A stretch of DNA of 64,000 nt from Cordylochernes scorpioides (taxonomy: Eukaryota; Arthropoda; Arachnida; Pseudoscorpiones; Chernetidae). A model generated the notes under the pieces. It was not told the origin of the DNA. It was given only the letters and a program-made list of their open reading frames with translations, and made no database searches. The translations under genes and the position numbers were made by a program. Positions 1 to 43,087 of this stretch are shown piece by piece (position 1 is the first letter of the stretch; the number at the start of each line of letters is the position of its first letter). The stretch lies in assembly GCA_030710605.1 (NCBI GenBank), contig CP092863.1, forward strand, positions 64,479,572 through 64,543,571, read 5' to 3'.

Positions 1-212
1 GAAGTAAGCATGCGTATATTTTACCTGGTCTCTCAGCTGAAAAGACCAAAACTAAATTAACCTAACTGGTATGGATGGTGAAAGACAGACGGCCGATATA
101 ACCCTTTATATTTATGACAAGGCTTCACGAAATAGTGGAGGTCTGACCTTGTCAACCAAGAGGACCCAACTTCAAGAAATCAAAGCGACAGATTCAACGG
201 GTTGCCTAGACC

Positions 213-446
213 ATGGTAATACAACAATGGAGTTCCCTCGATAGCTGCTTCTATGTGGAATTTTGCCTTGACTTCATCAAACTGCAGTACCCTCAAGCGT
301 TAGACAAGCTCTTAGGGGGTAAAGAGGCCATCCTACAGCTGGCCAAGATGAACGGCCACGTCCTCGTCATCCTGTCAACCCTCACCCTCACGGAGCGCCT
401 GATCGATGAGGATTATACAATCGAGGACTGCCAGCAACACCCATGA
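213..446 (+). pseudogene. LINE ORF1 C-terminal remnant (left copy)
   Basis: A 77-residue open frame directly precedes the endonuclease frame of an APE-type LINE. Its stop codon TGA overlaps the downstream ATG as ATGA at 443-446, the arrangement used for termination-reinitiation in some LINEs. I see no zinc knuckle in it. Its mirror copy is at 42312-42545. The identification as ORF1 rests only on position. Confidence 0.45.
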
Positions 447-1066
447 GATTCCGCATTGCGATGCTCAACGTGCGTGGTCTCGCCACTCGCCATAGAAGCA
501 TGGAGCTCTACTGCTTTAACTGTGTGCCATGCTGTTGACTTCGCATTCGTGCAGGAGGCCAACGTCACGGCCCCTGAAAATGAACAAGATATCTGTGTTG
601 GTTACAGAGAAACCATCGCGCCATCGATGTCTACCATTGTATCTGGGCTTGCCTGTGTCGCCGCTCCTGGCGTAACCATCCTGTGGCAGCGAATATTATG
701 GCAAAGGACGATCGCTGTGGTCAGCGTCCGCAGTCGCCAAATGGCTTTAGTAAACTGTCACCTTTTCATGCTCTAGGCGAGCGGCTCCTACAACTGCAGA
801 CCATCGCGGCTGAAGTCATCAGAGAAGATGCCTGGGTCCTTAGTGAGCTGAATATCTCAGGGGAGTCCACAAATGACATTAGCTCTTGTTGAGTGGAAGA
901 ATTCACAGAACTCCTGGAACGAGCTGACCTTGTGGATGCTGCGTGCATCTTCGAGGCCACGCACCTACCAGCTAGGGTCGCCACACTCGAAAGCTGGATC
1001 GATGCGAGTCGTCTTGCTTGATTCCTTTAACCATTCAGGCTCTTTTACCACGTCTCACCCATTTCT
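443..1066 (+). pseudogene. APE-type LINE ORF2 endonuclease remnant (left copy)
   Basis: The frame opening at 443 begins with FRIAMLNVRGLATRH, the N-terminal strand of LINE apurinic-endonuclease domains, in which the Asn of LNVRGL is a conserved active-site residue. Further pieces in shifted frames (FAFVQEANVT, then a catalytic-core-like stretch around 600-770) follow the endonuclease order, but stops and frameshifts break the frame repeatedly. This is a decayed LINE of the L1/Tx1-like type; the clade is a guess. Confidence 0.65.
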
Positions 1067-1551
1067 GAACAATTAATTATAGGCTGTCGGACTACCATGT
1101 TTTGATCATGCATCGCTGCCATGCTTCGCTCGAGGACCGCTATTGACAGAGTAGCGACGCTCTTTGACTACTTACACAGACATGAGATTTCTTCAGAGCA
1201 TATTACCACAGCTATCTGCCACTGCCGCTCGAAAGAGCACTTGAAAGCATACTGATGAAGGCCTTCGATGAGTTCTTCATTGGTACGCTACAGCGAGTCT
1301 TCGAGTCATGGAGGATTTGCTAGCCCTTACTTTCTTCATCACGAAGCAACTCCATCTGCCTCATGCCCAAGTCGCACGGTGGTGGTCGTCCGGCCTCAAC
1401 GGCTACAGACTTATCTCCATTCCAACAATGGGTATCGGGTCCTCCGCAGCGTTCTCCTAGAGCGACTACGACCTCATCTTCCTTGCCTAGTGCCAAGTGC
1501 CAGACCTACGCTGTTCCAGGACGGTCCTCCTCTTGGAATATAGTCCGCGTT

Positions 1552-2146
1552 TCTGACGAGGTCGCCGCAGCCTCAAGGAACAGTACATCACTAGCTGTCA
1601 TCTCCACAGACCTTGAGTCTGCCTTCAATACTTTAGACTGCAGTCTCCTGATTTCTCTACTAGTGTCACTTCGGCTGCAATCAGCCTTCATCGGGGCAAA
1701 CGCTATAGTCAGAGTAAACACCACTACACACATCCTTTCACCTTCTAAAACGGAGTCAAAAAGGGCTGCGCCACCTTGTTCAGCCTTGTGATAAGACCAC
1801 TCCTGCGTCGTCTAGAGCGGATTCTCGGCCAAGGGAACGTTCTGGCAATACCAACATCACCCTATTCATCCCGAATGATGAACAATTCCAACACGTCAAA
1901 AACATCTACGAATTCCAGCATGCGTCGCGAATACAAGCGAACTACAACAAGACCAAAGGTATTTGGTGTGGTGCCTGGAGAAACAGAGTATAACCCTTTG
2001 AACATCTGTTGGTCTATAGTGCCATTGAAGGTTCTGGGTGGTCTAGTGACTACAAGACAAGGAACATCAGTCCAGGATACCCATATCGTGGAGCTGATGG
2101 AGACGGCCACTTTAAGATGGTCCTCCTTCGTTCGCGGCCTCTCCAA
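1552..2146 (+). pseudogene. LINE reverse transcriptase remnant (left copy)
   Basis: The stretch AVISTDLESAFNTLDCSLL near 1597-1650 matches the first catalytic-Asp region (motif A) of LINE reverse transcriptases. Downstream, LFSLVIRPLLRRLERIL corresponds to motif B/C surroundings, and ITLFIPNDEQFQHVKNIYEF followed by ANYNKTKVFG (about 1850-1970) matches the palm end after the YADD box, whose YADD is lost. Several frameshifts make it non-functional. The mirror copy is 40612-41206. Confidence 0.75.
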
Positions 2147-2472
2147 GGGCGGGCGAGAACTTCAACATTCTTATTTCTCTCTCTCTCTCTCCACCATCTC
2201 TAAGTTCCAAGTGGTACATTTTGTCTTGGGACCTGAGCGCACTGCCTGGCTGCCAGGAGGTGTCCTAACACGTCCTGTCTCCATGGGTCACTTCGGCCTT
2301 CTCGAGTCACGCATCTGGGAACTAACGTGTATGAAAGATGCTCAAGCTGGAAGTATCCACATGGAAGTTTCAACGCCTACCGGCTTCATACAGGCCATCA
2401 ATGATTATGAAGGCGGTTTTCTCCCAGCCTTTTTCATCTTCTTCAATCTTCTAATGCCCGGACAAAGATCCA

Positions 2473-2760
2473 TCATGGAGAAGTGACTAGAGCCAGATAA
2501 ATTGTCAAGGCATTGTCAATGTCAATGCGTGGCAGCAGGTAAGCATCCTTGTTTGTGACCTTATTTAATCGAAGGTAATCTATGCAGAATCTCCAGGTTC
2601 CATTTTTCTTTCGAAATATTATAACTAGAGATGACCAAGGACTTTCAGAGGTTTCCACGATGCTATTCTCAATCTTCTTGTTCACTTCATCTTGAATTAG
2701 AATCCGTTCACTTGGTGCTACTCTATAGGGCTGCTGTTTGATAGGAGAGTGGTCTCAGGT
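2473..2760 (-). pseudogene. Gypsy-type reverse transcriptase fragment (left copy)
   Basis: On the minus strand an open piece reads [20 protein letters not shown], then [20 protein letters not shown], the start of the RT domain of Ty3/Gypsy Pol. The catalytic region that should follow is missing. Upstream minus-strand sequence to about 3080 may be more of the same element in broken frames. It abuts the LINE remnant, so one inserted near or into the other. Mirror copy 40065-40285. Confidence 0.8.
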
Positions 2761-3327
2761 GTTTATCTTGTGCTTCACATTACCGGTGGACTTAATAGAA
2801 GTACTCCAAAAGTCAAATGTCAATGAACTCATCAAGACATGAAACAAGCTGCAACTTTTGAATTTCAGTCAGTCCTGGATCCAGAGTAAGGTTTCTTCTG
2901 TGACCATTCACGTAATTTTATCTGTGTTTCTTGTCATTTATCGCTCAATTCGACCAGACTGTAGATATTCCCATTCTTATAACTTTCCATTGTGCACATA
3001 TTCATTCCTGATGGAATCAGTTGCAGCCAAGATGTTCCATTCGTCACCCAAATGCTGCCTCAGCCATGTCGAAATTTAACCAGAGAGTTTGGTATAAGTA
3101 CTTATTTTCTTAGTAATAAGTCCTTAGAAGCATTGACTAAAACATCTCTGACTCTCCACATATTTCTTCATTTATCACACAGATCTTTATTGATTTGGGT
3201 AGGATGACAAAGTCATCAGGGGGAAGTGAACAAATGGATTGGCCAAGTTGATTTCCGTTCCACTAGATGGCACTCTGTCAATTCATGTAATCTTTGTACA
3301 AGGTGATAAGAAACAACAACACATAGT

Positions 3328-5632
3328 TGTTGCGTTCCCGGTTTGGATAGATGAAAAGGGAGGATACACGATGTGACTTATTAAAGTTTCCTTACTTAAG
3401 TATATATATATATAGCAATTTAGGCCAACAACCCCATGTATATAACCCGCAGCAAGACCTTAATGTTGTATAATAGAAGCACAGCTGTCAATGATGCACT
3501 ATCGACATATGTCTTTACATCATCACATGTAATGCAATTTGTGCAAACAGGATAAATAAAATAAAAAAAAGGGGGGAAACTCTGTAATTGATTAAGAGTT
3601 GAGCTAAAGCAGGGATCGAGCATATAATATTGTCAGAACAAAGGTCTAAAGATGGAAACAGCCACGACACTAGTATACAATTTCATCAGACAACCCATGA
3701 AATCGTTATTAAATTGGGCAATCTATAAAATACTCCTTCTGGAGGTTTAGCAACCCACTGAAGACGCTGGGAGCTATTTCATAGAGGAAAATTATAGCAA
3801 CAGATCTCTATAATTTCTACAGATCAACTGTAAATCGATTCATATTAAGGCATTTTTATAGCCCAAATAACACAAACAATAGTCAAACATACAAATCTGT
3901 TTGCATCATGCCGTACCCTCCTAACAGCGTAACAATAGACCGAGGAATCAGAAAATATGGTATAATGGTAAATATGATGGAAAAGCGCACTGAAACACAT
4001 AAAAGTACAAACATTACTAAAACCTGACAGATAGATACCCTCAAAGTAGCCCTAATAAAGTCGTAATTTGCGACTGTTGCTGTGTCAATATATCATAGCA
4101 AAGATATAGTACACAACTCTATTCCAACAGAGTCGGTAGTTCTATATTTAGTACAATTTGTGAAATTAAGGTGTGGGGGGTAGTACCATAAAGCAAAAGG
4201 AATGAAATATGTATGAGAGGAAACAAGAAGATTTCTCTAGATAATTATTTAAATAAATTAAAATTTGGGAACATGTCTATACTGACGAGATATGCTATTT
4301 ACATAGTAAAATTTAGATAGAGGTGACCTGAAGTTACTTTATAGCCCTTTAGGGCCCATGTGAAATCTAGGTTGGTTACTACACAAAAAGGGGGGGGGGC
4401 GCTAAGTCATAATGACAAATGGCTTACCTTTTCTCGAAAGTGCCGGCAAAGGCCCGACTGAAGACTGTCCTCTCACTGAGCGACTCAGATTGAATCTGCC
4501 TTTTGGCAAAGAAACCCTCTTTTATTCTTGTCTCTCTCCGTTTTCATTCGCTGGCCGCGCCAAAGTTTCTATTGGCTGGCATTTTCATTCGCCGAAAGAA
4601 ACACCAATCAAAATGGCCAACGGCTCCAGTATACGATTTCACAGACGCCCCAGGCCTCTCCCATAAAAATAGAACATATAGTATTACCAAAACAAAAAAA
4701 TCTAAAGAGAGAAACAGCCACGGCAATAGTGTAAAATTTCATCAGACCCCAGGCCTCCTCCACATGGGCTGTAATACGATCCTCCCTTTTCTCGGGACGG
4801 TATATATATCGCCCCCCGTCTTGGCTAAAAATCGACCCAGGCCCCTTTTACCTGGACTGTAATGTGATGCTTCCTTTTTTCGGGAAGGATATTTATAAGG
4901 CTTAATCTTTTAGAAATCTTCCTTCTCCATTTCTTCTGGTCACCTTTACCTAAATTTTTGGTGAGGGGAATATATGTACATATGGAACAACAGCTTCCAG
5001 CGCGGATGTCCCTGGATGTCACTGGTGTCTTCTTCACCAGGCATCAGCTTTCGGCATGGAAGTCTGGTGTCATCAATTGTCTAGGTTTCTGGGCAAAAAG
5101 GTGGTCTATAAGTCTATGTGGGAGGGAAGCCATGTATCCATTTGATGTTGATTATACATACGCCTTCTGTTGGGGTATGGTTACAAAAACGTGCCCCAAC
5201 AATCCTCCCCCTGCCAAGTAATGGACAAATGCGTTTGTGCTATTCATTATTCATCTGCCTTTCATCAGTTACTATGAAAGCAGGCCCATTTCTAGCAAAA
5301 TTCATTTTCCATTACTAGGTGAAGCCAGATGTACCGAAACCTATAGGGAAGATAAGGCTAATCAAAATGATGGTATGCTATTCTAGATGTTTATTATTCC
5401 GAACATTAGTGGGCATTGTGCATCCTGGCAAAGGGGTTTTTATGTGTTATTATTCTGTCAGCACACTGTTATCAACATAGGTTATGGGGGACAGTCATAT
5501 CATATGTATGGAAGTAAGCAAGGTCATCTGTCTCACCATTCACCTCATCCTTGCCTCTTGGTGCGCTGGTTTCATTGCTACCTTCTTTCTGTTAGCAATA
5601 CAGTTATAACATTTCCCTATTACATATTATAT
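3328..5632. other. Non-coding part of the 10.6-kb insertion
   Basis: No convincing gene. Short overlapping open frames at 4412-4862 have no recognisable domain and alternate frames within simple-sequence-rich DNA. A G12 run lies near 4389-4400. Confidence 0.6.
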
Positions 5633-5884
5633 TGTGACAAAGAAATATTTTATTATTTAATTTAATATTATTCAATGAAAATATATTCAACAGATTATAA
5701 AAATATATATTAATCTGTATTTGTGAAATCATCTTTAAAATATTTCTTCGCTGGCTTGCTTAAGATTCCCTAGCTGTAGAGGGAGTTGGGCTGACCTGTT
5801 AATAATTGTCGACTCGTCGCTGTGACGTCATCAATAAATACTTTTACATCTTAGGATATTTCAAGGCTTGATTTCTACGCTACA
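5633..5884 (+). repeat. 5' LTR of gag-only element
   Basis: 252 bp, TG...CA ends, AT-rich U3-like first half, with an AATAAA-like signal (TCAATAAATAC) near 5831-5840. A TGG-starting primer-binding-site candidate begins 2 bases downstream at 5887. Confidence 0.93.
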
Positions 5885-5894
5885 ACTGGTAGAG

Positions 5895-7106
5895 ATGCTG
5901 GACCGATACCCATTAAGAAATAAAAGAAAAATTGATTCTGTTGAACCAGAAGAAACTTCTATGAATGTAAAGAAGGAAGGTATTCAGGTAAGCAACTACG
6001 TTGTTCAACATTTGCCAAGGAACCCTTCCATTTTCTCCGGGGAGGATGGAGAAGATCTCCAAAAATGGTTAAAAGGGTATGCACGTGTGGCAAAGTACAA
6101 CCATTGGGATGAAACCCTTTGTCTTACTAAAGTTTATTTTTATCTGTCTGGAACTGCTCTCAAATGGTTTGAGAACAACGAAGAAAGCATCCAGACTTGG
6201 AAGGAATTCACATCTCAATTAGAGAATGTGTTCGGAAAAAAAGAAAATTCAAAATTGCAAGCGGAGAAGAAACTTAAAACGCGGGCACAATTAAGAGGCG
6301 AAAGTACCGAATTTTACATCCAGGATGTCCTGTGCTTGTGCAAAGAGGCTGATCTTCAAATGAGCGAGGAAGATAAAATCTCCCACCTCATGAAGGGGAT
6401 AGCTGAGGAGCTTTATCAAGCACTCCTACCGAGGGATGTACAGAGCACCGAGCAATTCATTACAGAATGTCGCCGTGTCGAAGCGCTCCGTTGTAGGCGA
6501 GTTACCTCAACCAAGTACGAGCGCCTACCAAATGTAGCCTCTCTCTGTGACCAGGATGACGGAGAAGATCTGTCATCGCTGATCCGAAAAATTGTTCGTG
6601 AAGAGATAAGGCAAGCATTGGACTCTCCTCAAGAGGAGCCTAAAATCGCTGTCATTGAAGATTTAGTGAGGGAAGAGATTGTAAAGACCTTGGCACCTAG
6701 ATCAAAACCTACAATAAGTCCCCCCCAAGCATCCAGGCCCACATACGAGGCCCAAACGATACGACCGCATTCTGAACCTCATTACCGAAAGCAAGGAGGA
6801 AGACGCGACACCAATGATTGGCGTACAACTGAGGGAAGGCCAATCTGTTTCTACTGCGGACGCCCAGGTCACGTCGTCCGCTATTGCCGTGACAGGAAGA
6901 GACACAATGAGGAAAGGAGAAATGACTATTTCCAAAGAAAGCAAGACGCAATGGTATCCTACAACTCTCGAGCTGAATCTCAGGACCCCAATGACGAATC
7001 ATCGAGGGAAACCTTCACTCGCTACCGAAGCCCTACTTCATATCGCGGTCGAAACAGACAACATTTCTCACCTGCTAGAAGATCTAGCTGGACGCCCCGC
7101 CATTAA
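5895..7106 (+). CDS. gag: Gag protein with CCHC zinc knuckle (gag-only element)
   Basis: A 403-residue Gag if translation starts at the first ATG after the LTR (5895); the frame is open further upstream into the LTR only through a TTG. Residues roughly 40-200 form a Retrotrans_gag-type domain (FSGEDGEDLQKWLKGY, ALKWFENN, and FIQDVLCLCK-like helices). A charged linker leads to a single CX2CX4HX4C knuckle (CFYCGRPGHVVRYC, nt about 6846-6887), and the tail is rich in Arg, Ser and Tyr. Gag packages element RNA in particles. The gene has no internal stop, but pol is absent, which is unusual for a copy with identical LTRs. Confidence 0.9.
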   Translation: MLDRYPLRNKRKIDSVEPEETSMNVKKEGIQVSNYVVQHLPRNPSIFSGEDGEDLQKWLKGYARVAKYNHWDETLCLTKVYFYLSGTALKWFENNEESIQTWKEFTSQLENVFGKKENSKLQAEKKLKTRAQLRGESTEFYIQDVLCLCKEADLQMSEEDKISHLMKGIAEELYQALLPRDVQSTEQFITECRRVEALRCRRVTSTKYERLPNVASLCDQDDGEDLSSLIRKIVREEIRQALDSPQEEPKIAVIEDLVREEIVKTLAPRSKPTISPPQASRPTYEAQTIRPHSEPHYRKQGGRRDTNDWRTTEGRPICFYCGRPGHVVRYCRDRKRHNEERRNDYFQRKQDAMVSYNSRAESQDPNDESSRETFTRYRSPTSYRGRNRQHFSPARRSSWTPRH

Positions 7107-7364
7107 AACTAGATGATAGACCACATTGGAGGTGAGGCCGCAAAGTTATAAAATCCCCCCTTACCGACCACAGTAGAAATGAGAAAAAGCTACCTTGACG
7201 TAAACATAGACCTACCAAGCCCTCATGAAGAAGATATCTCAACTGAAAGAAGACATCCACCGCAGTCACCTGAAAATATCCCTGGCCATAGTACTAGTTC
7301 TTAAGACTGACGACGTACGTCTCCTGCTGAGCATCGGGTCGATGCTCTCTATAGGAGGAGGCTA

Positions 7365-7616
7365 TGTGACAAAGAAATATTTTATTATTTAATTTAATAT
7401 TATTCAATGAAAATATATTCAACAGATTATAAAAATATATATTAATCTGTATTTGTGAAATCATCTTTAAAATATTTCTTCGCTGGCTTGCTTAAGATTC
7501 CCTAGCTGTAGAGGGAGTTGGGCTGACCTGTTAATAATTGTCGACTCGTCGCTGTGACGTCATCAATAAATACTTTTACATCTTAGGATATTTCAAGGCT
7601 TGATTTCTACGCTACA
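7365..7616 (+). repeat. 3' LTR of gag-only element
   Basis: 252 bp, visually identical to 5633-5884. It is preceded by the purine tract at 7352-7362 and followed by the ATAT target duplication. Confidence 0.93.
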
Positions 7617-10600
7617 ATATTTAAAAAATATTGGGCGCCAAGAAGTCGTTTAGAAATAACTGACTAGTCCAACTTCTAAAACATGCCAGTATCTTTATTT
7701 AAGTACCAATCAAGACATTCGTGTGGTATAGTTATATATATACAATCAAAGGAAAGGATAATTATAGTTAGCTGAAAGAAATATCTTGGTATAAAATGAT
7801 TAGCCTATGACATGATGACTTTTGCTAAATAAAAAAAAAAACAGAAAACAAATTGTGAAAGTAATTATTAAATAAGGCACGAAATATGTAATGATAAAAT
7901 GAATCCTTCCATGTTATATGATGGGTATAATATATATATTGAAGAAAACACGTATCATGCAGATAGTGATTAAATATGATAAAAATCATCCCATGATAGA
8001 TGATAAAGAAAACCACTACAAAATTATATATGATGACAAAATATATATACATATACAAGTAAGGCGGATAAAAGACAATAAGGATAAAATAGATCATGCC
8101 TTGAGGGAAGAATAAGCCACGACAACATGTTAAAAAAAAAATCGCAACATGGCAGGTAAATATTACTAATATCATGAATATCAAAGGAAATAAATTTGTT
8201 GAAATGAATAGTATATGATTATAATATAATATAAATGATATAAAATAATAACCTATTCAATAAGAAAATGAAAACACATTATATATATTTGTGCGCTGAA
8301 GGTTCAAGGTTTAGTATCTCAGTTAAGTTTTCAATCTTATTCAGTCTGGAATCACGAGTTGGTCACTGGGTAAAATTCGTCTATTCCGATCCTACTGGAG
8401 GGTGTGTTTTCTCTTATGTGTTAGATTCCTCTGTTACAATACTCTCAACCCAGGTGGGAACGTCATTTAGAATCTTGGTCAAATGGAACATAGCCCAGAC
8501 CTCTATTAAACTACACAGTCCATTTAAATCTAGGGTGACAACCGTATGAAGAGAATTTTTTTTTTCTGTTTTGGCAGAGCGACTAATCAATTTCTACTAT
8601 TTTGTTTGTGGCTCCGTTTACCTTGCCTCTGGGGTGTGTACAGTTCAGCTACCTCCCCCTTCCAAGAAATTCATATTACTTTCATCTACTAATATACTCT
8701 CTATTCATTGACCTGAATCCTATAAATCTACATCTTATAAGTTTGAATTTTATCAATCTGAAATTTTGGTTCCTTTTACAAATTCCTTCAGAATTCTACT
8801 CCCTGTATAACTGCTCTTAATTCTACTGTCCTCAATACAACACTTCTAAAACTTTGACTCATTGGCTCGTTCTGGCGTCTCGTTCGCGGTCATTATAGTT
8901 AACTAATACTTTAAAATCTTATCCTATCATGGAACGAGTTTGAACTCGTTGAAGGTCCTAATAATTACTTATTCTGCCTCTCGAATCGGTCTTATGCTCG
9001 AATTCATTCCAACAAAACGTATGGCAGGGCGAATCCTTTATTAGAAGAAACTTCCGCTAGCTATGGGGGATCAAACTGGTACCAAAAAAAATTCAATAGA
9101 CGGAAACTACTTCGTCTAGAATAACTGGGCAATCTCTGCCTACATGCTATTCTTACAGGACCTCCCGTCTGAAACACCCTCGCTCCAGCCACGCTAAAAG
9201 CGTCGAAACTACGGTGTCAGATCGGTTACCCAAGGTCGCGCCGTTATACCCCAGGCTATACGGCATGGCGCTAAAACAAATCCCCCATCCTGCATAAAAT
9301 TCAATCTATACCTCTTCGCTTCCTCTTGCGAGGAGGAGTTGAGTGGGAAATTCGGCTTGATCCTTGCCTTCCACTATCTCCAAGTCTGAGGGTCGGGATA
9401 GGGATCATTTATCCACAATCCTTAGAATTCAAGCTAAACTAAGATAAAAGAAAATCAAAGGAAAATTATACCCCTTAACGAGGGACCTAACAAAAGGGAG
9501 CGAATATTTTCTAACTAGATAGAGTTGTAGTTGTCCTGTTTGAGGCTTCTCGGTCCTAACAAAATTCGAAATAAAAAATAAAATAAAATAAAAATCGATC
9601 CTATTAAAGTCCTTAACCCTATTCTAATGTAATTTGGGCTCACAATATAATAGTTTTTAACCTTTTTCTACATTCATTGCACCAATTCATTCATACACCC
9701 TCCCCCCTTTCATTCGCGGTACGCATACAAACTAAGGTTGAAAGCTGCTACAAAGGCCAAAATACTCATTTATCTATATCAATAGATCCTAACAAATGAT
9801 AACATCTTTCAGGACACAATGTGAAATCAAATAAAATAATAAAATTAAAACAAATTGGGAACTAAAGCCCTAGGTTACTCAAAAGAAAATGCCTCTGTAC
9901 AAGCTCTATATATACTAATACTTTATACTCGATAAATGATTGTTAACAATAATTGTTAACAATTCTAAATAATCTGGAAGCTAACCTACTAAAAAAAATC
10001 AGTGTAACTTCAAAAACTGCCCTTGCCTTGACACCAAGCGACTTTTCACGACAATTCTATATAAAGACATACACAAATTATAATGGCGAATAAAGGACCA
10101 TTAAGCGTGACACCTCATAAAAGCGGATTGAGTCTCTCCCCTAGCCACCGTGGGTGAAGTCACTTTCTTCTTACTTCCTCGTGTGTCTGCCCCCTTTGCA
10201 CTCTATTGAAAGATGGATTTATAGGGTTTACGATTCACTACCCAACACTAACATTCTCAAGTGCTTTCCAAGGATCGACTACAGTCTGGGCCTACTTAAC
10301 TTCTACCCCTGGCTTAGGGTCCCTATACTTCACAACTTCACTCTGAGAGATTGAACTTTTATGTCCTCATTAGACACCTATTTCAAAGCTACTACCTGAA
10401 AGCCAGGGATTATAGGGTTTCTTTTCTAAATTACCCAACACAAGCCATAGTATGCCTATTAGGTTTGTTGTTTTAGACATAGCCCCCCTCTAAGTTGTGA
10501 TTTCCTACACCTTCCTTCACCTATTACTCCTGATAATAACTAAAATTTCAGATTTATACTAAATAGTTAATTCACAATGGTATACATTATTCTCATTGGT

Positions 10601-31553: not shown

Positions 31554-31655
31554 TATATGTTACACTGAAGGGTGGAATCTTAGAATTTCTGTTTTTCCCA
31601 CCAAACTTTGAGGTATTACTGTAAAGGTACATCAACTTAAGGTGTACAAAATTAG

Positions 31656-31841
31656 TTCCATGACAACTGTGCGATGCAGTGAGATCTGGGGACTGAAGGA
31701 AGAATATGACATCCACCAATCCATCTTCCAGGAGAGGCTGCATTCCCTCAAGCGGGGCTGTGATCTCACCGCCAGCAAGCCCAAACGAAGGAAAGTGGAC
31801 GATGGCCATGAGCGCTGGGAGATGGACATCAAATTCTTCAA
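31656..31841 (+). CDS. DUS2: DUS2 right copy, linker exon
   Basis: 186 nt, acceptor AAAATTAG, donor CAA|GTGAGT; reads SMTTVRCSEIWGLKEEY and ends in the basic linker and MDIKF. Confidence 0.87.
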
Positions 31842-34800
31842 GTGAGTTTCTCTCCTTGTATGAAATATGCTGTTCCCATTCATGGCTATGTGAAGTTTTT
31901 TTTTCTTATCCCTAGTACACGTGGTACAAAATAAATAAGAACTGGAGGATCCCACCTAAGCACAGTTGGTACAGACTAGAAGCAATAGTTTCCCAGACCT
32001 CAAAGGTCCATAAACCGTACACCATTGCTGACATCCAGGTCACACAGCCAAAAGGGAATGATGCATTCTCCATGCACCGAGCGGCCATTGTTTGGCCCCT
32101 CGCGCCCGGCATTATGGTCTGGCTCCATGGGGTCGACCAATCAAACCCACAGGCGTTTTCGAAAGTTCATTGGCAAGGTTGCTGACCGAGCCCTCTCGTT
32201 CGGACTTAATTAAACCCGTCCTACGCTCCAATAGGACTTCCCCCCCTTTGGCCCTCGAACCCTTAGTTCCCAGTACTCCCTGAATCTGCCGTCGAATCAA
32301 GGACCTCTGAGGTTCTGAGGTTGACGCGGGGAACCCCGTGAAGGCGGGGGGTGGTACTGCTGTGTGCACCCCTTGGTGTTTTTCAGCAGCCAGGCCTAGC
32401 CCTGGTTTGCAATTTTCACGCATGGCAAGGACGCTCCCAATGGCGCACACACAGAGCGAAGACCCAAGAGTTTCAAGACTCGTGCGCCCCACGACCAGCT
32501 AGCACAGTTCGTACAGTGGAGTGAACCCAGGAGGAGCTCTGAACATCCGAAATAGACAGCATCAAACAACACTAACAAGATTTAGAACAGGCCATCTCAA
32601 GCCATTGAAGATAGAAAATAACAACAAAATCTACCCCACTTGCCCAAAATGTAGCTTGGCACCTGCAGCTCCAGAACACATTTTGGCTTGCATTAGATGC
32701 ACTAAACAGGACCTTTGGGAGAGGCCGCTGCTTATCATAAAACAGCTCGAGGAGCATGAACTCATGGAATTCGTGTAATCTTTACACAAGGGGATAAGAA
32801 ATAACAACAACACGTGGTACAGACCATGATAATCATGGTCGGTAGAAGTAGGCTACTGCTTTTACTGTAAGTACACCACATGTCTACATATGTGTAAAGC
32901 ATTTCGACTTTGCACTTACAAATGTGCCAGAGCCCCGTTTGGTTACTTGCACTCGCTGGTGAGGTTGGATTTTTGCAAGAAACAGGGGCCATCGGAACAT
33001 TTTTTTTTAAATTGGAAAAAAGTGCCCAATGTGGGAATCGAACCTGGGTTGTAGCGGTTGAAAACCAATGGTGTAAATGTGAAGAATTGATTGTGCACAG
33101 TGCTGATTTCTCTAATCCTATATGTAATACTGGCTGTACACCACATTGAGCAACAGTGATGATTTACAATGTGGAATACTCTGTCCAGGAAGCTCTACCA
33201 GTCTCACACCTTGCTGCCCAAGACAGTTCTCCATAATTGGGCCCAGCAGTGTGATACTCCACCCTCCTACCAGACTGTGAGTCTCCTTCTCATTTTTAAT
33301 TGATTGGTTCATTTCTTTCAACCATCCCTTGCTGCATCTAACTTTACACTGGGATGCATGCTTGTTACTTCTATACTATTGGTAGAGAACTTTGTTCTGT
33401 GGTCATTAGCAGCAACTAGGTTGTACTGGTGTATATTTGACAAATTATTCGAACTGCTTTTCACATATGTAGACATGTGGTGCACTTACAGTAAAAGCAG
33501 TCGCCTACTTCTACCCACCATGATTATCATGGCCTGTACCACGTGTACTAGGGATAAGCAAAAAAGATATTTGACATATCAGAAGTTTTTCAAATTAAAG
33601 ATACTTCAGCCAGTAATTCTTTTTTATTGTCTCGACGTTTCGACAAAAATATTTTGTCCTCATCAGGAGCGAACAAAAATTAAAATATTTGGCAAAGTGT
33701 TATAAATTATTCTCGCTAATAATTTTTAATGCTTTGCCAAATGTGTTTTAATTTTTGTTCACTCCTGATGAGGACAAAAGATTTTTGTCGAGACAATAGA
33801 TTTACTGGCTGAAGTATCTTTAATTTGAAGAACTATGAATGCCAGCCAGGCAGCCTCTATCTTTATGAAAATCAGCAGTTGTCCAGCAAAGAGATGGAAT
33901 GTTATCTCACCAGACTTGTGATGTGGCAGATCCAGAAGGACAAGACTTTCTATACAGAGGTAACGGTCAACGGAGAGAAATACGCCAACAGTCTTGGGTG
34001 AGTTCACAGTGTTGTTGGATGGCAGGTTGGTTATCACCACCAGATGTAGCTTACGTTCCAGATGGAAATTATAGCAGTGATAGGGAACAGTGTGTCTCAC
34101 CAAAATAAAGAAACAAAAGCTATTGACTCTCTCTTCAATCCTACAGACACTGATCAGGGAAAATGCCACAGCATCAGTATGGCAAATTCTGGAAAACCAT
34201 CTGAGAAGGCTTGAAAATTAAAAAAAAGTTTTAAATCATCATTGATATCTAGTACAGTAGAACCTTACTTTAGGGGACAGCCTGCTAACAGACACCTCTC
34301 TACAAAGGACAGTTTTCATTTGCAAAATTACCATTTTTACTATTTAGCAAGTCTCCGGTAAGAGAACACCTCTCCCTAAAGGACACTTTGGCTCTGCAAT
34401 TGGTGTCCTTTACAGGGAGGTTATACTGTATATACTAATTCTAATGCCAACAACACACACATTCACACACTCAAAGATCATTTTACATATAATTGACATA
34501 TTATTGCAAATTACCATTCCTGAACAATGTCATGTTGTTAATGTCCTTCAAGTCGACTTTTAGTGACCATATGGATATATATTCTCCAATTTGACATGAT
34601 AGTTGTACCATATAGCTCAAATTATATAGCTCAAATTACAAGTAAAGTCAGACTTTCACCAAAGTGTGCCTGGATCATGGTGCCATGATCAACGAAAGCT
34701 GCATCCCTATACCCCATTCCATGAGATCATGAACTCATGGAATTCGTGAAGTCTTTACACAATGGGATAAGAAACAACAACCATATAGCTTTTTAAGTAG

Positions 34801-37800
34801 TGTTTGATACAGAACTGGTTTGCCAGTGCCTTCTTCCATCTATGCCGCTGGCCAAATAAATTTGGCTCTTCCATCTTTTTGAGCAATTTTTCTCTCCAAG
34901 AACAAAAGAGTGTCCTTCTTCATTACAAGAATGAAGTCCCAGTTTTCATTCCATCCCCCTTTGGGTTAGCCATCCCATTAGGATGTTGTTTGTTCTCTAC
35001 CGGAGATGTATTCGAACTGAGAGTTACAAGTAGGAGTGTGAAATTCATTGGGATTGATACCAAATGGCATTTCTCTAAACCCTCCAGTAGAGCTTGTTAC
35101 TGCTTCCCCTCCTCCTTTTTCATACGGGCTTGGGACCGGAAAATGCGAATTTTAACATGTTCCAAGCAAATGTAATACAGGAAAAATTCCAGGTAGTGAT
35201 GCCCATCTCAAATTCTAAAATAATTCTCGGCAATGATGGACATGTACATACTGCCCTCACTGGGACCTTCTTCAGCATCGATTTTCTATAGCCATGGCAT
35301 TTTATAAAATAAACAGTAGCAATACGTTTCTTCATTCGTGAAAAGTGCAAGCTCTCGTATCTCTACAATCCTTCCACAGGCATAGCTGTAAGTTGAGAGA
35401 ATGAGTATAAATAAATATACAATATTATTTACATATATATTTAAAGACACAACAAATTTACATACAGCTATGCTCGTGGAATAATATTGTATATTTATAT
35501 ATCCTCATTCTCTCAACTTACAGCTATTCCCGTGGAAGGATTGTAGAGATCCGAAAGCTTGCATTTTCATGAATAAAGAAACGCATTGCTGCCGTTTATA
35601 TTTGTATATTTTTACTTTATAGCAATTTTCTTTTTTAAAGGACATTCTATGTTAACCTGCTCTTGGGCCAATTATCATTGCTTGGGATTCACCACAGGAG
35701 AGCAGAGAACTTAGCCTTCCAATTATCCAGATATAATTTCAATAAAATATAATTCCTTGTACAGTAGAACCTCCATGAGAGTGCACTCACGCTAGAGGAC
35801 ATCTCTCTACAAAGAATAGTTTTCATTTGCAAAATTACCAATTTTACAATTTAGCAACTCTCCAGTAAGAGGACATCTCCCTAAAGGACACTTTGACTCT
35901 ACAATTAGGTGTTGTCCTTTACAGTGAGTAAGTTCTACTGTATCAATATTCAGAGTGAAAATATCAGGCTTCCAGGAATAAGTTTCTTTTAATGTCTATA
36001 TATCTTCCCCTTATGATTACGTCTAACAGGAATAAGGAGGTTATCCACTTATCTATGGAACATACGGTGACGTCAGTGACTGAAGTGGAAAGAGGTCTTC
36101 CCATTGGGGAATCCTTTTATCTGTTTATAATGTTTCATAACATATGAAAGAAACTTATATTATGATACATTAGCGCGCCATCTGTTATCAAAATTCGAAA
36201 CTATTATAGACACGTATGATTATTTTAAAAAATAAACAATTTCTACTGTCCTTACTCGGCCCTTCCATAAATTTTTCCATTGCAGTAAGGACAGTAGAAA
36301 TTTTTTATCTTTAAAAAGAATCATACGCGTCTATAATAGTTTCGAATTTTTATAAATAAACTTATCCTTGTAAGCCTGATAGTTTTACCCTAAGATATAA
36401 TTTCATATACTGTATTCCAAAATGCATTGTTAATTCTCACAGGATTATGTTAACCTTTCATTAATTTATGCTTCTGATCATGGGGACTGATAGTTTTGTT
36501 TAACTAATTTATAAATTCACAAAACTCCGCCTCTGCCGGTCCCAAGCCCAGATGTAAAAGGAGGAGGGGAGCAGTAACAAACTCACTAAAAAAACCTGGG
36601 TTCAGCTGGCCCAGCTGATAGTACCCTGTAAGGGCTCCTAATCCAGGGATACAGGATGAGTCTGTACTCCATGTTAGGAGCGGCTGCACATGGCATCCGT
36701 TCCTCATGTCATTCTTAATGACAAAGGCAGACGCAATCTACCACACCCAGTGTGGAGATAAGAAAGAAGAAGATAAATTCACATCAAAATTGACCATAGT
36801 GATAGTAATAAAGTGGTAAAGCACTATTAATATACAAGGTAGGATCAAAAAGTTCCCAAGCTTTTTTAAATTAATTATTTATTCATAGTATAGTAATTTA
36901 AATATCAAAATTTTCAAAATAGGAACCTTGGTTATCTACACATTTTTTTTTCAGCGTGAAAAAAGGTGTTGGAATGCTTGTTCAAAGTCAATTTTTCTAA
37001 GCTTGTTTAGCTCCACCGTCGCATTTTCAATTACTTCTGATGACGATGAAAAGCGCCTCCCTTTTAACGTCATTTTAAGTTTTGGAAAGAAGAAGAAATC
37101 ACATGGGGCGATATCAGGAGAGTAAGGAGGATGCGGTAAGACAGATACAGAGTGTTTGGCTAAATAGTCTTGAACAATAATGGATCTATGAGCAGGGGGC
37201 ATTATCATTTAGCAATTTCCACTGTTTTGATTTAAAGAGTTGGTTTCTTTTTCTTCTTATCGCATCACGAAGGCGCACAAGTATTTCTTTGTATGCCTGT
37301 TTATTAATAGTAACCCCCTCTTTAATAAATTCATAATAAACAAGTCCTTGATAATCGAAAAACACTACAAGCATTACTTTTCCTTTGGACTTGTCAAGAC
37401 GAACTTTCTTCTTTCTAGGAGAACTTGGTGTGTGCCATTCGAGTGATTGTTTTTTTGTTTGTGGATCAAAAATAAAGCACCATGTTTCATCCCCAGTTAT
37501 TAATGTTTTTAAAAAATCAGAATCATTATTTGCAGTTTCAATTAAATCTTTGCAAATTAATAATCTGGTTTCTCTTTATTGATCAGTTAAATTTCGTGGG
37601 ACAAAATAACCACAAAGTTTTTTCATGTTTAAATGTTCACCAATAATTTTTTGTAACTACCATACGAAATTCCAAGTATTTCTGATATATTATCAATAGT
37701 AATTTTGTTATAAGCAACAATTAAATCACATACTGTCCAATATTGCGATTCGTTGTTGACGTCAATGGCCGACCTGACCTTGAATTATCTGCAATGCTCT

Positions 37801-38441
37801 TACGGCCATCTTTAAAACGTTTATACCAGAAATAAACTTGCGTTCGTGACAATTTTTCGTCTTCATAAGTTTCATTCATTAATGATAACGTCTCTGTGAA
37901 ATACAATTTTAATTTTACACAAAATTTAATATTTGCCCTTTGCTCAAATGATGACATTGCAGAAACCGACGCGAGCTAAATACTTACAACAAAAATATGC
38001 CTAAAATGAAAACTACACATGCACATTTACTGACGTTGCTAAATTAAATTATAGTTTAGGCTTTGTTCTTTACAGTAAAATTGATTTTACATTTTTCAAA
38101 AGTTGTTTTATATTTTATTTTTTTAAAGTTTGGGAACTTTTTGATCCTACCGTGTATATATGAAAAAATAAAATAATAAAAAGGCCAGGTGTTGGTATTA
38201 CCTTGTGTTTTTACTTCATTAAAATAAAACAAGCTTTTTCATATAATGATTACACCCCTTCTTGTTTGTCTTGTGTCCAAAAATCTGCTCCCAAATATCC
38301 CAACTGTACTGTCTGTGTAGAGAAAAGAACAAGAAACTCTCAGAGCAAGCAGCTGCCCTGGTGGCAGGGATTGTTCTGGGACTTATCAAACCTGATGAAG
38401 ACATTGTGGAGAAATCTAGAAAGTTCTACATGACCAGTTGA
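31656..38441 (+). CDS. DUS2: DUS2-like tRNA-dihydrouridine(20) synthase, 3' part, right copy
   Basis: Four exons, 31656-31841, 33189-33276, 33930-33997 and 38321-38441, have the same lengths, phases and splice borders as the left copy and encode the linker plus the whole C-terminal dsRBD. Spliced, they give an uninterrupted frame to TGA at 38439. The exon before the linker, present at 30357 in the left copy, would fall before this contig's start at the gap. Over 463 coding nt I count 11 differences from the left copy, one non-silent. The introns carry LINE-A, SINEs, a PLE-type repeat, MITEs and a mariner. Confidence 0.87.
32520..32810 (+). pseudogene. LINE-A ORF2 C-terminal fragment and 3' end (right arm)
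   Basis: An 85-codon frame reads RQHQTTLTRFRTGHLKPLKI, then CPKCSLAPAAPEHILACIRC, then a stop at 32776 followed by the tail GGGGATAAGAAATAACAACA. This is the uninterrupted counterpart of the fragment split by the Gypsy element on the left. Upstream sequence (about 32040-32510), GC-richer with GGTTGACGCGGGGAACCCCG, may be more LINE sequence; it has no left-arm partner. Confidence 0.75.
32811..33070 (-). repeat. tRNA-derived SINE copy (right arm)
   Basis: Reverse-strand copy with GGTTCGATTCC complement (GGAATCGAACC) near 33033; partner of 21964-22240. Confidence 0.7.
33189..33276 (+). CDS. DUS2: DUS2 right copy, dsRBD first exon
   Basis: 88 nt between CTCTGTCCAG and GTGAGTCT; encodes KLYQSHTLLPKTVLHNW to PPSYQT. 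The split Lys codon (AA|G) joins the previous exon. Confidence 0.87.
33458..33560 (+). repeat. tRNA-derived SINE 3' part (right arm)
   Basis: CACATATGTAGACATGTGG to CCACGTGTACTAGGGATAAG; partner of 21478-21595. Confidence 0.65.
33585..33829. repeat. PLE-type inverted repeat (right arm)
   Basis: Arms run from AAATTAAAGATACTTCAGCC to its complement near 33829, each containing the CTGATGAGGACAAAA hairpin. The left half keeps a full hammerhead-like core; the right half has lost about 8 bases of it (GTCGAGAC instead of GTCGAAACGTCGAGAC). Confidence 0.75.
33634..33666 (-). ncRNA. Hammerhead-like self-cleaving motif candidate
   Basis: On the minus strand CTGATGA is followed by a hairpin (GACAAAA/TTTTGTC) and then GAAACGTC, the order of the hammerhead core (CUGANGA, stem II, GAAA, minimal stem III/cleavage triplet GUC). 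One extra G lies between the core and stem II. Small hammerheads of this kind are known from Penelope-like elements. Activity is not shown by sequence. Confidence 0.45.
33930..33997 (+). CDS. DUS2: DUS2 right copy, dsRBD beta-strand exon
   Basis: 68 nt. The acceptor is TGTGGCAG at 33922-33929; an AG 16 bases upstream would break the frame relationship. It encodes IQKDKTFYTEVTVNGEKY and ANSLG. Confidence 0.87.
34254..34428. repeat. MITE family A copy
   Basis: CAGTAGAACCTTACTTTAGG to GGGAGGTTATACTG. Confidence 0.85.
34640..34785 (+). repeat. LINE-A 3' end
   Basis: CTTTCACCAAAGTGTGCCTG followed by TCATGGAATTCGTGAAGTC and GGGATAAGAAACAACAAC. Confidence 0.6.
35330..35600. repeat. PLE-terminus-like inverted repeat
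   Basis: TCTCTACAATCCTTCCACAG at about 35358 is opposed by GGAAGGATTGTAGAGATCCG at about 35534; the second is followed by AAAGCTTGCA. These resemble the CTGTGGAAGG...CGAAAGCT terminal hairpins of some Penelope-like elements. Confidence 0.55.
35762..35940. repeat. MITE family A copy
   Basis: CAGTAGAACCTCCATGAGAG to AAGTTCTACTG, TA-flanked. Confidence 0.85.
36236..36345. repeat. Short hairpin of MITE family C
   Basis: AATTTCTACTGTCCTTACT and AGTAAGGACAGTAGAAATT face each other around a 30-base centre. It is bounded on the left by GCGCGCCATCTGTTATC, also found next to the 43088 foldback. Confidence 0.7.
36510..36775 (+). repeat. LINE-B 3' end
   Basis: CTCCGCCTCTGCCGGTCCCA through AGGAGCGGCTGCACATGGC to GTGGAGATAAGAAAGAAG, partly deleted. 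Confidence 0.6.
36835..38154 (-). mobile_element. mariner element, right arm only
   Basis: 1320 bp flanked by TA, with about 28-bp inverted ends (AAGGTAGGATCAAAAAGTTC at the left; the complement of CGGTAGGATCAAAAAGTTCC at the right). The size, TA target and internal transposase pieces identify Tc1/mariner of the mariner type. No partner exists in the left arm. Confidence 0.93.
36951..37957 (-). pseudogene. mariner transposase, broken
   Basis: The N-terminal piece (from 37957) has the helix-turn-helix start SSFEQRANIKFCVKLKLYFT and the RSGRP linker (SRSGRPLTS). Central and C-terminal pieces lie in other frames: DNAP (near 37190), then AHRSIIVQDYL in a shifted frame and PYSPDIAPCDFFFF, holding the second and third Asp of the D,D34D triad. 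A frameshift at about 37190 splits DNAPAHRS, and stops lie between 37374 and 37721, so it cannot make active transposase. Confidence 0.9.
38321..38441 (+). CDS. DUS2: DUS2 right copy, terminal exon
   Basis: 121 nt from acceptor CTGTGTAG to TGA; encodes EKNKKLSEQAAALVAGIV and the tail ending FYMTS. Confidence 0.87.
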
Positions 38442-38579
38442 CCTCTCTCTTACAACACCAATATGTAAATATGTAATTATATATATGATACACATATCCC
38501 TCAATATAATTTATGTCAAATAAAATATGTTTATTATTTGTTAATCTTATTTTTCATTTTTAACATAGATAAGACACAC

Positions 38580-38700
38580 AATTTGGATTATAGATTATAT
38601 ACACAAGGTAATAAGACCTAATCTAAATAAATAAATAGTGTGTTAACACACACACTATTTGTTTATTTATTTAGATTTGGTCTTATTACCTTATGTTTAT
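38580..38700. repeat. PLE-type inverted repeat, core deleted
   Basis: CAAGGTAATAAGACCTAATC...AATAGTGTG faces CACACTATTTG...GGTCTTATTACC; the central hammerhead-like part is missing. A shorter relative lies at 15250-15330. Confidence 0.7.
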
Positions 38701-38993
38701 AATCTTTTAACCTATTTAAAGAACCCTTATATGATATGCAATTCTCAACAATGTTTCAGAAGAAACTAAATCAGTTCCAAATACAATAATAAGCAATCAA
38801 ATCTATATAATATCTTAAAAGTTAGACTCGAGCTGTTACTGTAGCAAGGAAAGCTTGGACTCGAGACACCTACTGCTGGAATGTCCACTCTTTTATAGAG
38901 CGTTAGACAACAGACAGCTACCAATGTAGAATATCTGTATGAATTTGTAAACACCAGAGAGAATTGTTACAGATTTAACCACTTTTATAAATA

Positions 38994-39169
38994 CAATTAA
39001 ATTTGTCTATAGCGTCCCCTCTAAATAGCACCTCCCTCTCTATAGCACCTGATTTTAAATACGTAGTACGATGTGATTTACATTAAAATTGACCTGTCTA
39101 TAGCACCCCTCTCTATAGCACCCTATTTTGGTGAGTCCCAAGAGGGGGCACTATAGACAGGTTTAACTG
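38994..39169. repeat. MITE family B copy (right arm)
   Basis: CAATTAAATTTGTCTATAGC to GACAGGTTTAACTG; partner of 14169-14343. Confidence 0.8.
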
Positions 39170-40064
39170 TATATTTATGTCTGTCTGTCTGACTTGAAAG
39201 TATCAGGTTCCTAATACATCATTGTTTCTTTTTTACTTGAATAGTGATCTATATAGCTGTTTCTGTTTAACAATTGTAAATTGATGCAATTATCCCTAGA
39301 GGGGATATTACGTTTTGTGTGTTGAAATAAATAAATAAAGAAATTCTTACAAGTTAGAATGAAAAATGATAATGTTTTAATAAATTGTGATAGTAATCTT
39401 TGCTTGAAGTCTTAATAGATTAATTGACTTTATGTGTTGTTGTTTCTTATCACCTTGTACAAAGATTACATGAATTGGCAGAGTGCCATCTAGTGGAACG
39501 GAAATCAACTTGGCCAATCCATTTGTCACTTCCCCCTGATGACTTTGTCATCCTACCCAAATCAATAAAGAAGGTCAGTGTGATGAAGAAATATGTGGAG
39601 AGTCAGATGTTTTAGTCAATGCTTCTAAGGACTTATTACTAAGAAAATAAGTACTTATACCAAACTCTCTGGTTAAATTTCAACATGGCTGAGGCAGCAT
39701 TTGGGTGACGAATGGAACATCTTGGCTGCAACTGATTCCATCAGGAATGAATATGTGCACCATGGAAAGTTATAAGAATGGGAATATCTACAATCTGGTC
39801 GAATTGAGCGATAAATGACAAGAAACACAGATAAAATTACGTGAATGGTCACAGAAGAAACCTTACTCTGGATCCAGGACTGACTGAAATTCAAAAGTTG
39901 CAGCTTGTTTCATGTCTTGATGAGTTCATTGACATTTGACTTTTGGAGTACTTCTATTAAGTCCACCGGTAATGTGAAGCACAAGATAAACACCTGAGAC
40001 CACTCTCCTATCAAACAGCAGCCCTATAGAGTAGCACCAAGTGAACGGATTCTAATTCAAGATG

Positions 40065-40285
40065 AAGTGAACAAGAAGATTGAGAATAGCATCGTGGAAA
40101 CCTCTGAAAGTCCTTGGTCATCTCTAGTTATAATATTTTGAAAGAAAAATGGAACCTGGAGATTCTGCATAGATTACCTTCGATTAAATAAGGTCACAAA
40201 CAAGGATGCTTACCTGCTGCCACGCATTGACATTGATGATGCCTTGACAATTTATCTGGCTCTAGTCACTTCTCCATGATGGATC
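40065..40285 (+). pseudogene. Gypsy-type reverse transcriptase fragment (right copy)
   Basis: Mirror of 2473-2690, reading [10 protein letters not shown], then a TGA where the left has CGA (Arg), then [18 protein letters not shown]. The stop distinguishes it from the left copy. Confidence 0.78.
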
Positions 40286-40611
40286 TTTGTCCGGGCATTA
40301 GAAGATTGAAGAGGATGAAAAAGGCTGGGAGAAAACCGCCTTCATCATCATTGATGGCCTGTATGAAGCCGGTAGGCGTTGAAACTTCCATGTGGATACT
40401 TCCAGCTTGAGCATCTTTCATACACGTTAGTTCCCAGATGCGTTAGTTCCCAGATGCGTAACTCGAGAAGGCCGAAGTGACCCATGGAGACAGGACGTGT
40501 TAGGACACCTCCTGGCAGCCAAGCAGTGCGCTCAGGTCCCAAGACAAAATGTACCACTTGGAACTTAGAGATGGTGGAGAGAAATAAGAATGTTGAAGTT
40601 CTCGCCCGCCC

Positions 40612-41206
40612 TTGGAGAGGCCGCGAACGAAGGAGGACCATCTTAAAGTGGCCGTCTCCATCAGCCCCACGATATGGGTATCCTGGACTGATGTTCCTTG
40701 TCTTGTAGTCACTAGACCACCCAGAACCTTCAATGGCACTATAGACCAACAGATGTTCAAAGGGTTATACTCTGTTTCTCCAGGCACCACACCAAAGACC
40801 TTTGGTCTTGTTGTAGTTCGCTTGTATTCGCGACGCATGCTGGAATTCATAGAAGTTTTTGACGTGTTGGAATTGTTCATCATTCGGGATGAATAGGGTG
40901 ATGTTGGTATTGCCAGAACGTTCCCTTGGCCGAGAATCCGCTCTAGACGACGCAGGAGTGGTCTTATCACAAGGCTGAACAAGGTGGCGCAGCCCTTTTT
41001 GACTCCGTTTTAGAAGGTGAAAGGATGTGTGTAGTGGTGTTTACTCTGACTATAGCGTTTGCCCCGATGAAGGCTGATTGCAGCCGAAGTGACACTAGTA
41101 GAGAAATCAGGAGACTGCAGTCTAAAGTATTGAAGGCAGACTCAAGGTCTGTGGAGATGACAGCTAGTGATATACTGTTCCTTGAGGCTGCGGCGACCTC
41201 GTCAGA
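40612..41206 (-). pseudogene. LINE reverse transcriptase remnant (right copy)
   Basis: Mirror of 1552-2146 with only a few substitutions; the same frameshifts are present. Confidence 0.75.
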
Positions 41207-41691
41207 AACGCGGACTATATTCCAAGAGGAAGACCGTCCTGGAACAGCGTAGGTCTGGCACTTGGCACTAGGCAAGGAAGATAAGGTCGTAGTCGCTCTA
41301 GGAGAACGCTGCGGAGGACTCGATACCCATTGTTGGAATGGAGATAAGTCTGTAGCCGTTGAGGCCGGACGACCACCACCGTGCGACTTGGGCATGAGGC
41401 AGATGGAGTTGCGTCGTGATGAAGAAAGTAAGGGCTAGCAAATCCTCCATGACTCGAAGACTCGCTGTAGCGTACCAATGAAGAACTCATCGAAGGCCTT
41501 CATCAGTATGCTTTCAGGTGCTCTTTCGAGCGGCAGTGGCAGATAGCTGTGGTAATATGCTCTGAAGAAATCTCATGTCTGTGTAAGTAGTCAAAGAGCG
41601 TCGCTACTCTGTCAATAGCGGTCCTCGAGCGAAGCATGGCAGCGATGCATGATCAAAACATGGTAGTCCGACAGCCTATAATTAATTGTTC

Positions 41692-42315
41692 AGAAATGGG
41701 TGAGACGTGGTAAAAGAGCCTGAATGGTTAATGGAATCAAGCAAGACGACTCGCATCGATCCAGCTTTCGAGTGTGGCGACCCTAGCTGGTAGGTGCGTG
41801 GCCTCGAAGATGCACGCAGCATCCACGAGGTCAGCTCGTTCCAGGAGTTCTGTGAATTCTTCCACTCAACAAGAGCTAATGTCATTTGTGGACTCCCCTG
41901 AGATATTCAGCTCACTAAGGACCCAGGCATCTTTTCTGATGACTTCAGCCGCGATGGTCTGTAGTTGTAGGAGCCGCTCGCCTAGAGCATATAAAGGTGA
42001 CAGTTTACTAAAGCCATTTGGCGACTGCGGACGCTGACCACAGCGATCGTCCTTTGCCATAATATTCGCTGCCACAGGATGGTTACGCCAGGAGCGGCGA
42101 CACAGGCAAGCCCAGACACAATGGTAGACATCGATGGCGCGATGGTTTCTCTGTAACCAACACAGATATCTTGTTCATTTTCAGGGGCCATGACGTTGTT
42201 GCCCTGCACGAATGCGAAGTCAACAGCATGGCACACAGTTAAAGCAGTAGAGCTCCATGCTTCTATGGCGAGTGGCGAGACCACGCACGTTGAGCATCGC
42301 AATGCGGAATCTCAT
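41692..42315 (-). pseudogene. LINE endonuclease remnant (right copy)
   Basis: Mirror of 443-1066 opening with the same FRIAMLNVRGL-type frame; a short cluster of substitutions at about 42195-42205 (VQGNNVM against VQEANVT) is the main difference. Confidence 0.65.
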
Positions 42316-42545
42316 GGGTGTTGCTGGCAGTCCTCGATTGTATAATCCTCATCGATCAGGCACTCCGTGAGGGTGAGGGTTGACAGGATGACGAGGACGT
42401 GGCCGTTCATCTTGGCCAGCTGTAGGATGGCCTCTTTACCCCCTAAGAGCTTGTCTAACGCTTGAGGGTACTGCAGTTTGATGAAGTCCAGGCAAAATTC
42501 CACATAGAAGCAGCTATCGAGGGAACTCCATTGTTGTATTACCAT
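42312..42545 (-). pseudogene. LINE ORF1 C-terminal remnant (right copy)
   Basis: Mirror of 213-446 with one amino-acid difference (Cys for Arg) and the same ATGA overlap with the endonuclease frame. Confidence 0.45.
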
Positions 42546-43087
42546 GGTCTAGGCAACCTGTTGAATCTGTCGCTTTGATTTCTTGAAGTTGGGTCCTCTT
42601 GGTTGACAAGGTCAGACCTCCACTATTTCGTGAAGCCTTGTCATAAATATAAAGGGTTATATCGGCCGTCTGTCTTTCACCATCCATGCCAGTTAGGTTA
42701 ATTTAGTTTTGGTCTTTACAGCTGAGAGACCAGGTAAAATATACGCATGCTTACTTCTAGCTACTTTATATGGTTCTATACATTACACAATAAACCCTTT
42801 TAAATAAAATACTAATATATATTCAAGTTATTCAAAGGTGTGTGATTTTAGCAGCCCACCTTTCATTCTTCAATAAGAAAAAAATAATTTAATTAGATTT
42901 GAATAATTGGAGCTCTGATAATCGGTATTTAGAATAGTTGGAGATCTGATAATTGGAATTTAGAATAATTTGAGTTCTGATAATAGGAGTTTTGCTTAAT
43001 TATTGTGCTTATAATTTTAGTTTCGCGGATGAGTGTGATATCAAATAATCAGAGTTATTATATTACGATGCACTAGCGCGCCATCTG

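Follow-up and report, generated by a model that had tools for sequence, protein, structure and literature searches.

Inverted copies of the same sequence on either side of a scaffold gap raise the question of whether the chromosome carries a true palindrome or whether the assembly has set two copies of one locus side by side. Such copies lie in the genome assembly of the pseudoscorpion Cordylochernes scorpioides (2.62 Gb in 24 sequences), in a stretch of 64,000 nucleotides at C1:64479572-64543571, hereafter the window; positions are counted within it, and negative coordinates lie to the left of its position 1. As a feature of the sequence the inverted duplication is real, but to judge from that sequence it is almost certainly not a chromosomal palindrome. 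It is highly probable that the apparent palindrome of ~40 kb is an assembly error, in which a second haplotype copy was retained and placed inverted beside the first. A sequence-only reading of this DNA had leaned towards misjoined haplotypes, and this lean is strongly supported by a contained contig bounded by gaps, by core pieces found in two copies (among the 40 best candidates per search), by empty insertion sites and by inverted pairs at two more gaps.

A contained contig and its neighbours

The window was compared with itself, and then again after adding 50 kb upstream and 40 kb downstream. In the self-comparison, inverted homology flanks a 100-N gap (30555-30654), the apparent centre of the palindrome, on both sides, and the right arm starts exactly at this gap, as had been read earlier, with 30655 pairing with 29257. 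The duplication had been placed at 1..42766 around the gap; the homology and the gap stand, but the extent does not, as 42766 is an effect of the window edge and, with the flanks fetched, the homology extends past position 1 to -9173 and rightward to 52699. A second 100-N gap (52700-52799) begins exactly where the right-arm homology stops.

The left arm is the window part (1..30554, + strand) of a contig of 41,297 bp (-10742..30554) that lies between the gaps -10842..-10743 and 30555..30654 and is regarded here as the longer of the two copies. The right arm (30655..52699, - strand) is a complete contig of 22,045 bp and an inverted, contained copy, apparently a haplotig, of -9173..29257. Both of its ends lie inside homology to its neighbour, 52699 pairing with -9173 and 30655 with 29257, and this containment of the shorter contig is what is expected of a haplotig. 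Altogether, 16,590 of its 22,045 bp (75%) are aligned in eight blocks. Three outer pairs, all at 96-97%, join 39431-47488 to 3325..-4700, 47893-49937 to -4550..-6587 and 49972-52699 to -6460..-9173; the window part of this outer homology on the left (1..3325, +) pairs with 39431-42757 and carries on beyond the window to -9173. The inner blocks, all on the + strand of the left arm, are 13907-14598 and 15162-15619 (within 13907..15619), which pair with 38740-39429 and 38307-38765; 21107..22517, which pairs with 32525-33922; and 27560-28428 and 28791-29257 (within 27560..29257), which pair with 31113-31974 and 30655-31119. Of a palindrome one would expect arms that are continuous through an assembled centre and unique flank beyond both arms; here the centre is the 100-N gap, and the right arm is still homologous where it meets the gap at 52700-52799.

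The same arrangement recurs nearby. Five 100-N gaps divide the 274 kb of contiguous sequence at C1:64,369,572-64,643,571 into six contigs (0-5, of which 0 and 5 are truncated at the limits of that sequence). At three of the five gaps, every second one, the contigs on the two sides are inverted copies: contigs 0/1 over 26.4 kb at 96.8%, contigs 2/3, which form the locus under study at about 64,468,700-64,532,400, over 14.6 kb at 95.7%, and contigs 4/5 over 11.6 kb at 95.6%. All other contig pairs within these 274 kb have at most 3.7 kb in common, in pieces of at most 1.4 kb. An assembly gap between the copies is thus found here (100 N at 30555-30654) and at both sister pairs. Substitutions amount to 1.92% in pair 0/1 and 2.97% in pair 4/5, with 5 + 1 and 4 + 4 one-sided insertions on either side. 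The homology includes the distal end of contig 1 (-10843) in pair 0/1, and in pair 4/5 it includes contig 5 from its first base (142995). A single palindrome may be biology; three of them, at every second gap, point to assembly.

A heterozygous diploid whose haplotypes differ locally by ~2-3% substitutions and many insertions would lead the assembler to build two contigs; the shorter haplotig would escape purging, and scaffolding would set it beside its allele, reversed, behind a 100-N gap. The two copies are probably alleles of the sequenced individual, and the join was presumably produced by scaffolding. If contigs of one locus were placed in this way, the centre of the palindrome is therefore an artificial join without biological function. 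The same course of events seems likely for the two neighbouring contig pairs.

Two further repeats were observed in this region. A near-perfect palindrome of 360 bp at 43084-43443 is 98.6% identical to its own reverse complement, has a counterpart in the other arm at -684..-326, and resembles a miniature inverted-repeat transposable element by shape only. A 5.2-kb direct duplication (72443-77642 and 79180-84378, 99.1%) lies inside the contig 52800-142894 with no gap between its copies, and may be either a genuine tandem duplication or a young element present twice.

Insertions private to one arm

Where the arms do not align, most of the sequence is mobile DNA. In the left arm only, an element of the long terminal repeat (LTR) type, ~10.6 kb long with TAGT flanks (3328..13905, +), carries a gag-like open reading frame (ORF) at 5838-7106 and an apparent 5' LTR of ~1.9 kb (3328-5202, TG...CA), its 3' LTR being cut down to ~20 bp; the right arm has the insertion site with two extra bases. 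Elsewhere in the genome, matches to this element start at 3323-3328 and nearly always end at 13883, and each of its two ends has at least 39 more copies. It also holds a 253-bp direct repeat (5633-5885 and 7365-7617, 100% identical), and in two other genome copies, on C19 and C21, the LTR start lies directly after the internal end.

A Ty3-type LTR retrotransposon (22517..27549, +), likewise in the left arm only, has LTRs of ~320 bp with 2 substitutions between them and a 5-bp CTGGG target-site duplication, and the right arm has a clean empty site. Such a site is also found for an element of ~360 bp (28429..28790, +) that is present in the left arm only and has a 7-bp GAATCAT target-site duplication. 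An insertion at 14599..15161 (+) of the left arm has an imperfect 26-bp flanking repeat and contains a copy of a ~360-bp multi-copy element, and a repeat part at 17800..19195 (+), in an element that may begin before 17800, is without a right-arm counterpart and has at least 39 further copies at 92-95%. Found in the right arm only are a 550-bp insertion (31975..32524, -) with a near-identical repeat of ~16 bp on both flanks and a mariner-type transposon at ~36830-38160 (-) with at least 39 further copies at 87-94%. Across the three pairs there are 35 breaks, classed as 11 complex, 7 small and 17 one-sided; complex ones make up 7 of 20 in pair 0/1, 3 of 6 in pair 2/3 and 1 of 9 in pair 4/5. In pair 2/3 the first break counts as complex since the block -6587..-4550 versus 47893-49937 is absent from the break list. 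Target-site duplications were looked for at part of the 35 breaks.

Shared and private pieces differ in their copy number. Each genome search scored the 40 best candidates, and the copy counts are lower bounds. The private stretches 36800-38200, 17800-19200, 12500-13906 and 3126-4525 have at least 39 further copies each. For the core pieces 38800-39400 and 32850-33850, two full-length copies each were found among these candidates, both in the window, and the remaining candidates match only parts. The window copies of the piece 1000-2000 are 99% alike, and other full-size genome copies are at 77-81%. The arms had also been said to share gene, LINE, SINE and MITE content in opposite order, and for the multi-copy pieces the reversed order is seen both in the self-comparison and in the genome searches. 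No host gene was identified among the 10 of 35 listed ORFs that were scanned; three of them match Pfam, all as transposon proteins.

Divergence between the arms and duplicated genes elsewhere

Over the eight blocks there are 426 substitutions in 16,391 aligned positions (2.60%), and this small number of substitutions (5.07% in the inner blocks), together with insertions that have empty sites, is what is expected of haplotype-like copies. The three outer blocks differ by 1.74, 1.90 and 1.86% substitutions and the five inner ones by 4.95, 6.05, 3.09, 5.93 and 8.68%, and 12,545 of the 16,391 aligned positions fall in blocks at 1.74-1.90%. Five short inner pieces of 86-180 columns, which are outside the 2.60% total, align at 80-90% and carry 7-18.5% substitutions; an alternative chain that includes them and lacks the outer block -6587..-4550 versus 47893-49937 gives 3.12%. 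The sequence-only reading had put neutral divergence in the inner region at 10% or more, which is overstated given 3.09-8.68% in the inner blocks and 2.60% overall, and its identity of 99% in the outer 3.3 kb becomes 97.8% when insertions and deletions are counted.

It had further described identity as rising outward. The contrast holds, at 231 of 12,545 (1.84%) in the outer versus 195 of 3,846 (5.07%) in the inner blocks (chi-square p ~6e-28, sites treated as independent), but no significant trend appears in windows of ~500 bp, where divergence and distance from the gap have a rank correlation of -0.23 (p 0.22) in pair 2/3. The same windows give -0.15 (p 0.29) in pair 0/1 and -0.31 (p 0.15) in pair 4/5; all three correlations are negative, in the direction claimed, and none is significant. 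Divergence peaks in pair 0/1 in windows far from the gap (7.4%) and mid-way (10.0%), and in pair 4/5 in a window near the gap (12.9%). The window set covers neither the block -6587..-4550 versus 47893-49937 nor windows with fewer than 200 aligned positions, and it omits some chain pieces as well (pair 0/1: 2 of 21; pair 2/3: 6 of 13; pair 4/5: 3 of 10). The pieces omitted from pair 2/3 are short and diverge more strongly (7-18.5%), so its window means are on the low side. The gradient is a two-level step, of which the contrast is real and a slope is not shown.

As a genome-wide control, four conserved families (TCP-1/Cpn60, proteasome, class I aminoacyl-tRNA synthetase and Rpb2) were searched in the whole genome and the matches clustered at 250 kb, with all rows of the other families and 23 of 45 Rpb2 rows being clustered; Rpb2 is excluded from the locus counts since it is multi-copy in this genome. 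The three remaining families give 31 loci, including two on C15 that consist of clustered fragments whose matches are confined to positions 1-44. Eight of the other 29 loci carry the same exon twice within 250 kb (10 of 31 if the two C15 fragment clusters, of 43-44 positions, are counted), and 21 are single within that distance; among the 29 there are loci that consist of one fragment or contain stop codons. The duplicated exons lie on opposite strands at three loci (C2, C3 and C7, that on C3 being a proteasome gene) and on the same strand at five (C6, C3, C4, C5 and C6), with scores that are mostly equal or nearly so. Retained haplotigs would produce such nearby second copies, in both orientations, of genes that are normally single-copy.

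The same searches gave 45 genome matches of the Rpb2 C-terminal domain (PF00562), for example at C11:82.15-82.23 Mb and 87.15-87.55 Mb, C4:128.15-128.21 Mb and C19:0.48-0.72 Mb, with six uninterrupted copies on C11 at 458-459 bits; this exceeds the expectation from three polymerases with two haplotypes. Cpn60 N-terminal fragments at C15:61345966 (-) and 61545966 (+) start exactly 200,000 apart on opposite strands, perhaps by chance or through a coordinate effect.

Alternative readings and known systems

Several points weigh against a misjoined haplotig. Substitutions of ~5-9% in four of the five inner blocks and of 7-18.5% in the five short pieces are high for alleles, as is a central stretch, 5.5 kb versus 4.4 kb, that hardly aligns. 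Pair 0/1 also leaves 5.9 and 1.9 kb unaligned near the gap, and contig 4 leaves 1.6 kb. All three local pairs are inverted, for which the chance under random orientation is 1/8, and part of the duplicated conserved genes may be true (tandem) duplicates. Overall divergence also exceeds 1.6%, the highest heterozygosity given among the genomes of PMC8081667. High-copy repeats explain part of the high inner divergence, and patchy divergence would be expected of haplotypes with locally different ages and of old repeat fragments. Furthermore, assemblers are described as keeping both copies where haplotype divergence is high (PMC8081667, PMC9516828).

A real inverted segmental duplication of ~22-38 kb with an unassembled centre would agree with arms inverted around a gap and with inner divergence of up to 8.7%. 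True segmental duplications can also break assemblies, which is a further point against a misjoin. However, the right arm has no unique flank, its homology reaching both gaps; three successive inverted duplications, each centred on a scaffold gap, would be needed; and conserved genes elsewhere are locally duplicated in both orientations. The palindrome, which had been offered earlier as the alternative, is not supported in view of the missing flank and the recurrence at three of five gaps, and we consider it very unlikely. The copies could also be homoeologues or hybrid subgenomes of a polyploid or hybrid animal, misjoined likewise, since 2-3% divergence and many private insertions are compatible with this too. 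With 21 of 29 conserved-gene loci single within 250 kb, a nearby second copy is not the rule, although purging of most loci, or copies on other sequences, would give the same picture; an origin from subgenomes is judged exceedingly unlikely. If the chromosome truly held a series of independent inverted duplications, each of 20-50 kb and with a centre that cannot be assembled, this animal would have an unusual process of recurrent fold-back duplication; this reading has hardly any likelihood. A palindrome whose outer ends are kept similar by gene conversion, the mechanism of the earlier gradient, would match the contrast of 1.84% versus 5.07%, the negative sign of all three correlations and the maximum of pair 4/5 near the gap. 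Yet none of the correlations is significant (-0.15, -0.23 and -0.31; p 0.29, 0.22 and 0.15), pair 0/1 has its maxima far from the gap and in the middle, and gene conversion is unnecessary if the arms are alleles, so this reading is barely credible; the earlier case for divergence beyond that of alleles, and for gene conversion to account for it, is weak, as most of the aligned sequence is below 2% and divergence at the sister joins is patchy. Finally, an inverted amplification chimera is rejected, as the arms hold different insertions and a scaffold gap lies between them.

A retained haplotig misjoined head-to-head is biologically ordinary, and its value is as a warning about assembly. This assembly appears to retain second haplotypes inside chromosomes at many places, and where it does, gene duplications, gene-family sizes, palindromes and the assembly size cannot be trusted without depth checks. 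The paired copies would at the same time provide ready-made allele comparisons, including transposon insertions.

Mammalian Y chromosomes carry palindromes with gene conversion, and the present locus is similar to these in its inverted arms of tens of kilobases. Unlike them, it has no assembled centre and no unique flank outside the right arm, and it recurs at nearby gaps. A closer likeness is offered by the false heterotype (haplotype) duplications described by the Vertebrate Genomes Project and in PMC9516828, in which, as here, divergent haplotype copies are adjacent in a haploid assembly with a gap between them. False duplications are recognised in PMC9516828 by half read depth, by gaps that separate the copies on one scaffold, by discordant read pairs and by one-copy k-mers; the likeness rests on the gap, containment and sequence, the other criteria being read-based. 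In contrast to the cases described there, three neighbouring ones are all inverted here, and the word "inverted" is absent from the main text of PMC9516828. Containment is given as a mark of haplotigs in the description of purge_dups (PMC7203741). Although only 75% of the right-arm contig is aligned in eight main blocks, partly because of private insertions, and although it sits inside a chromosome-scale scaffold, unlike haplotigs of the purge_dups kind, it shares with them that both ends of the shorter contig lie within homology to the longer.

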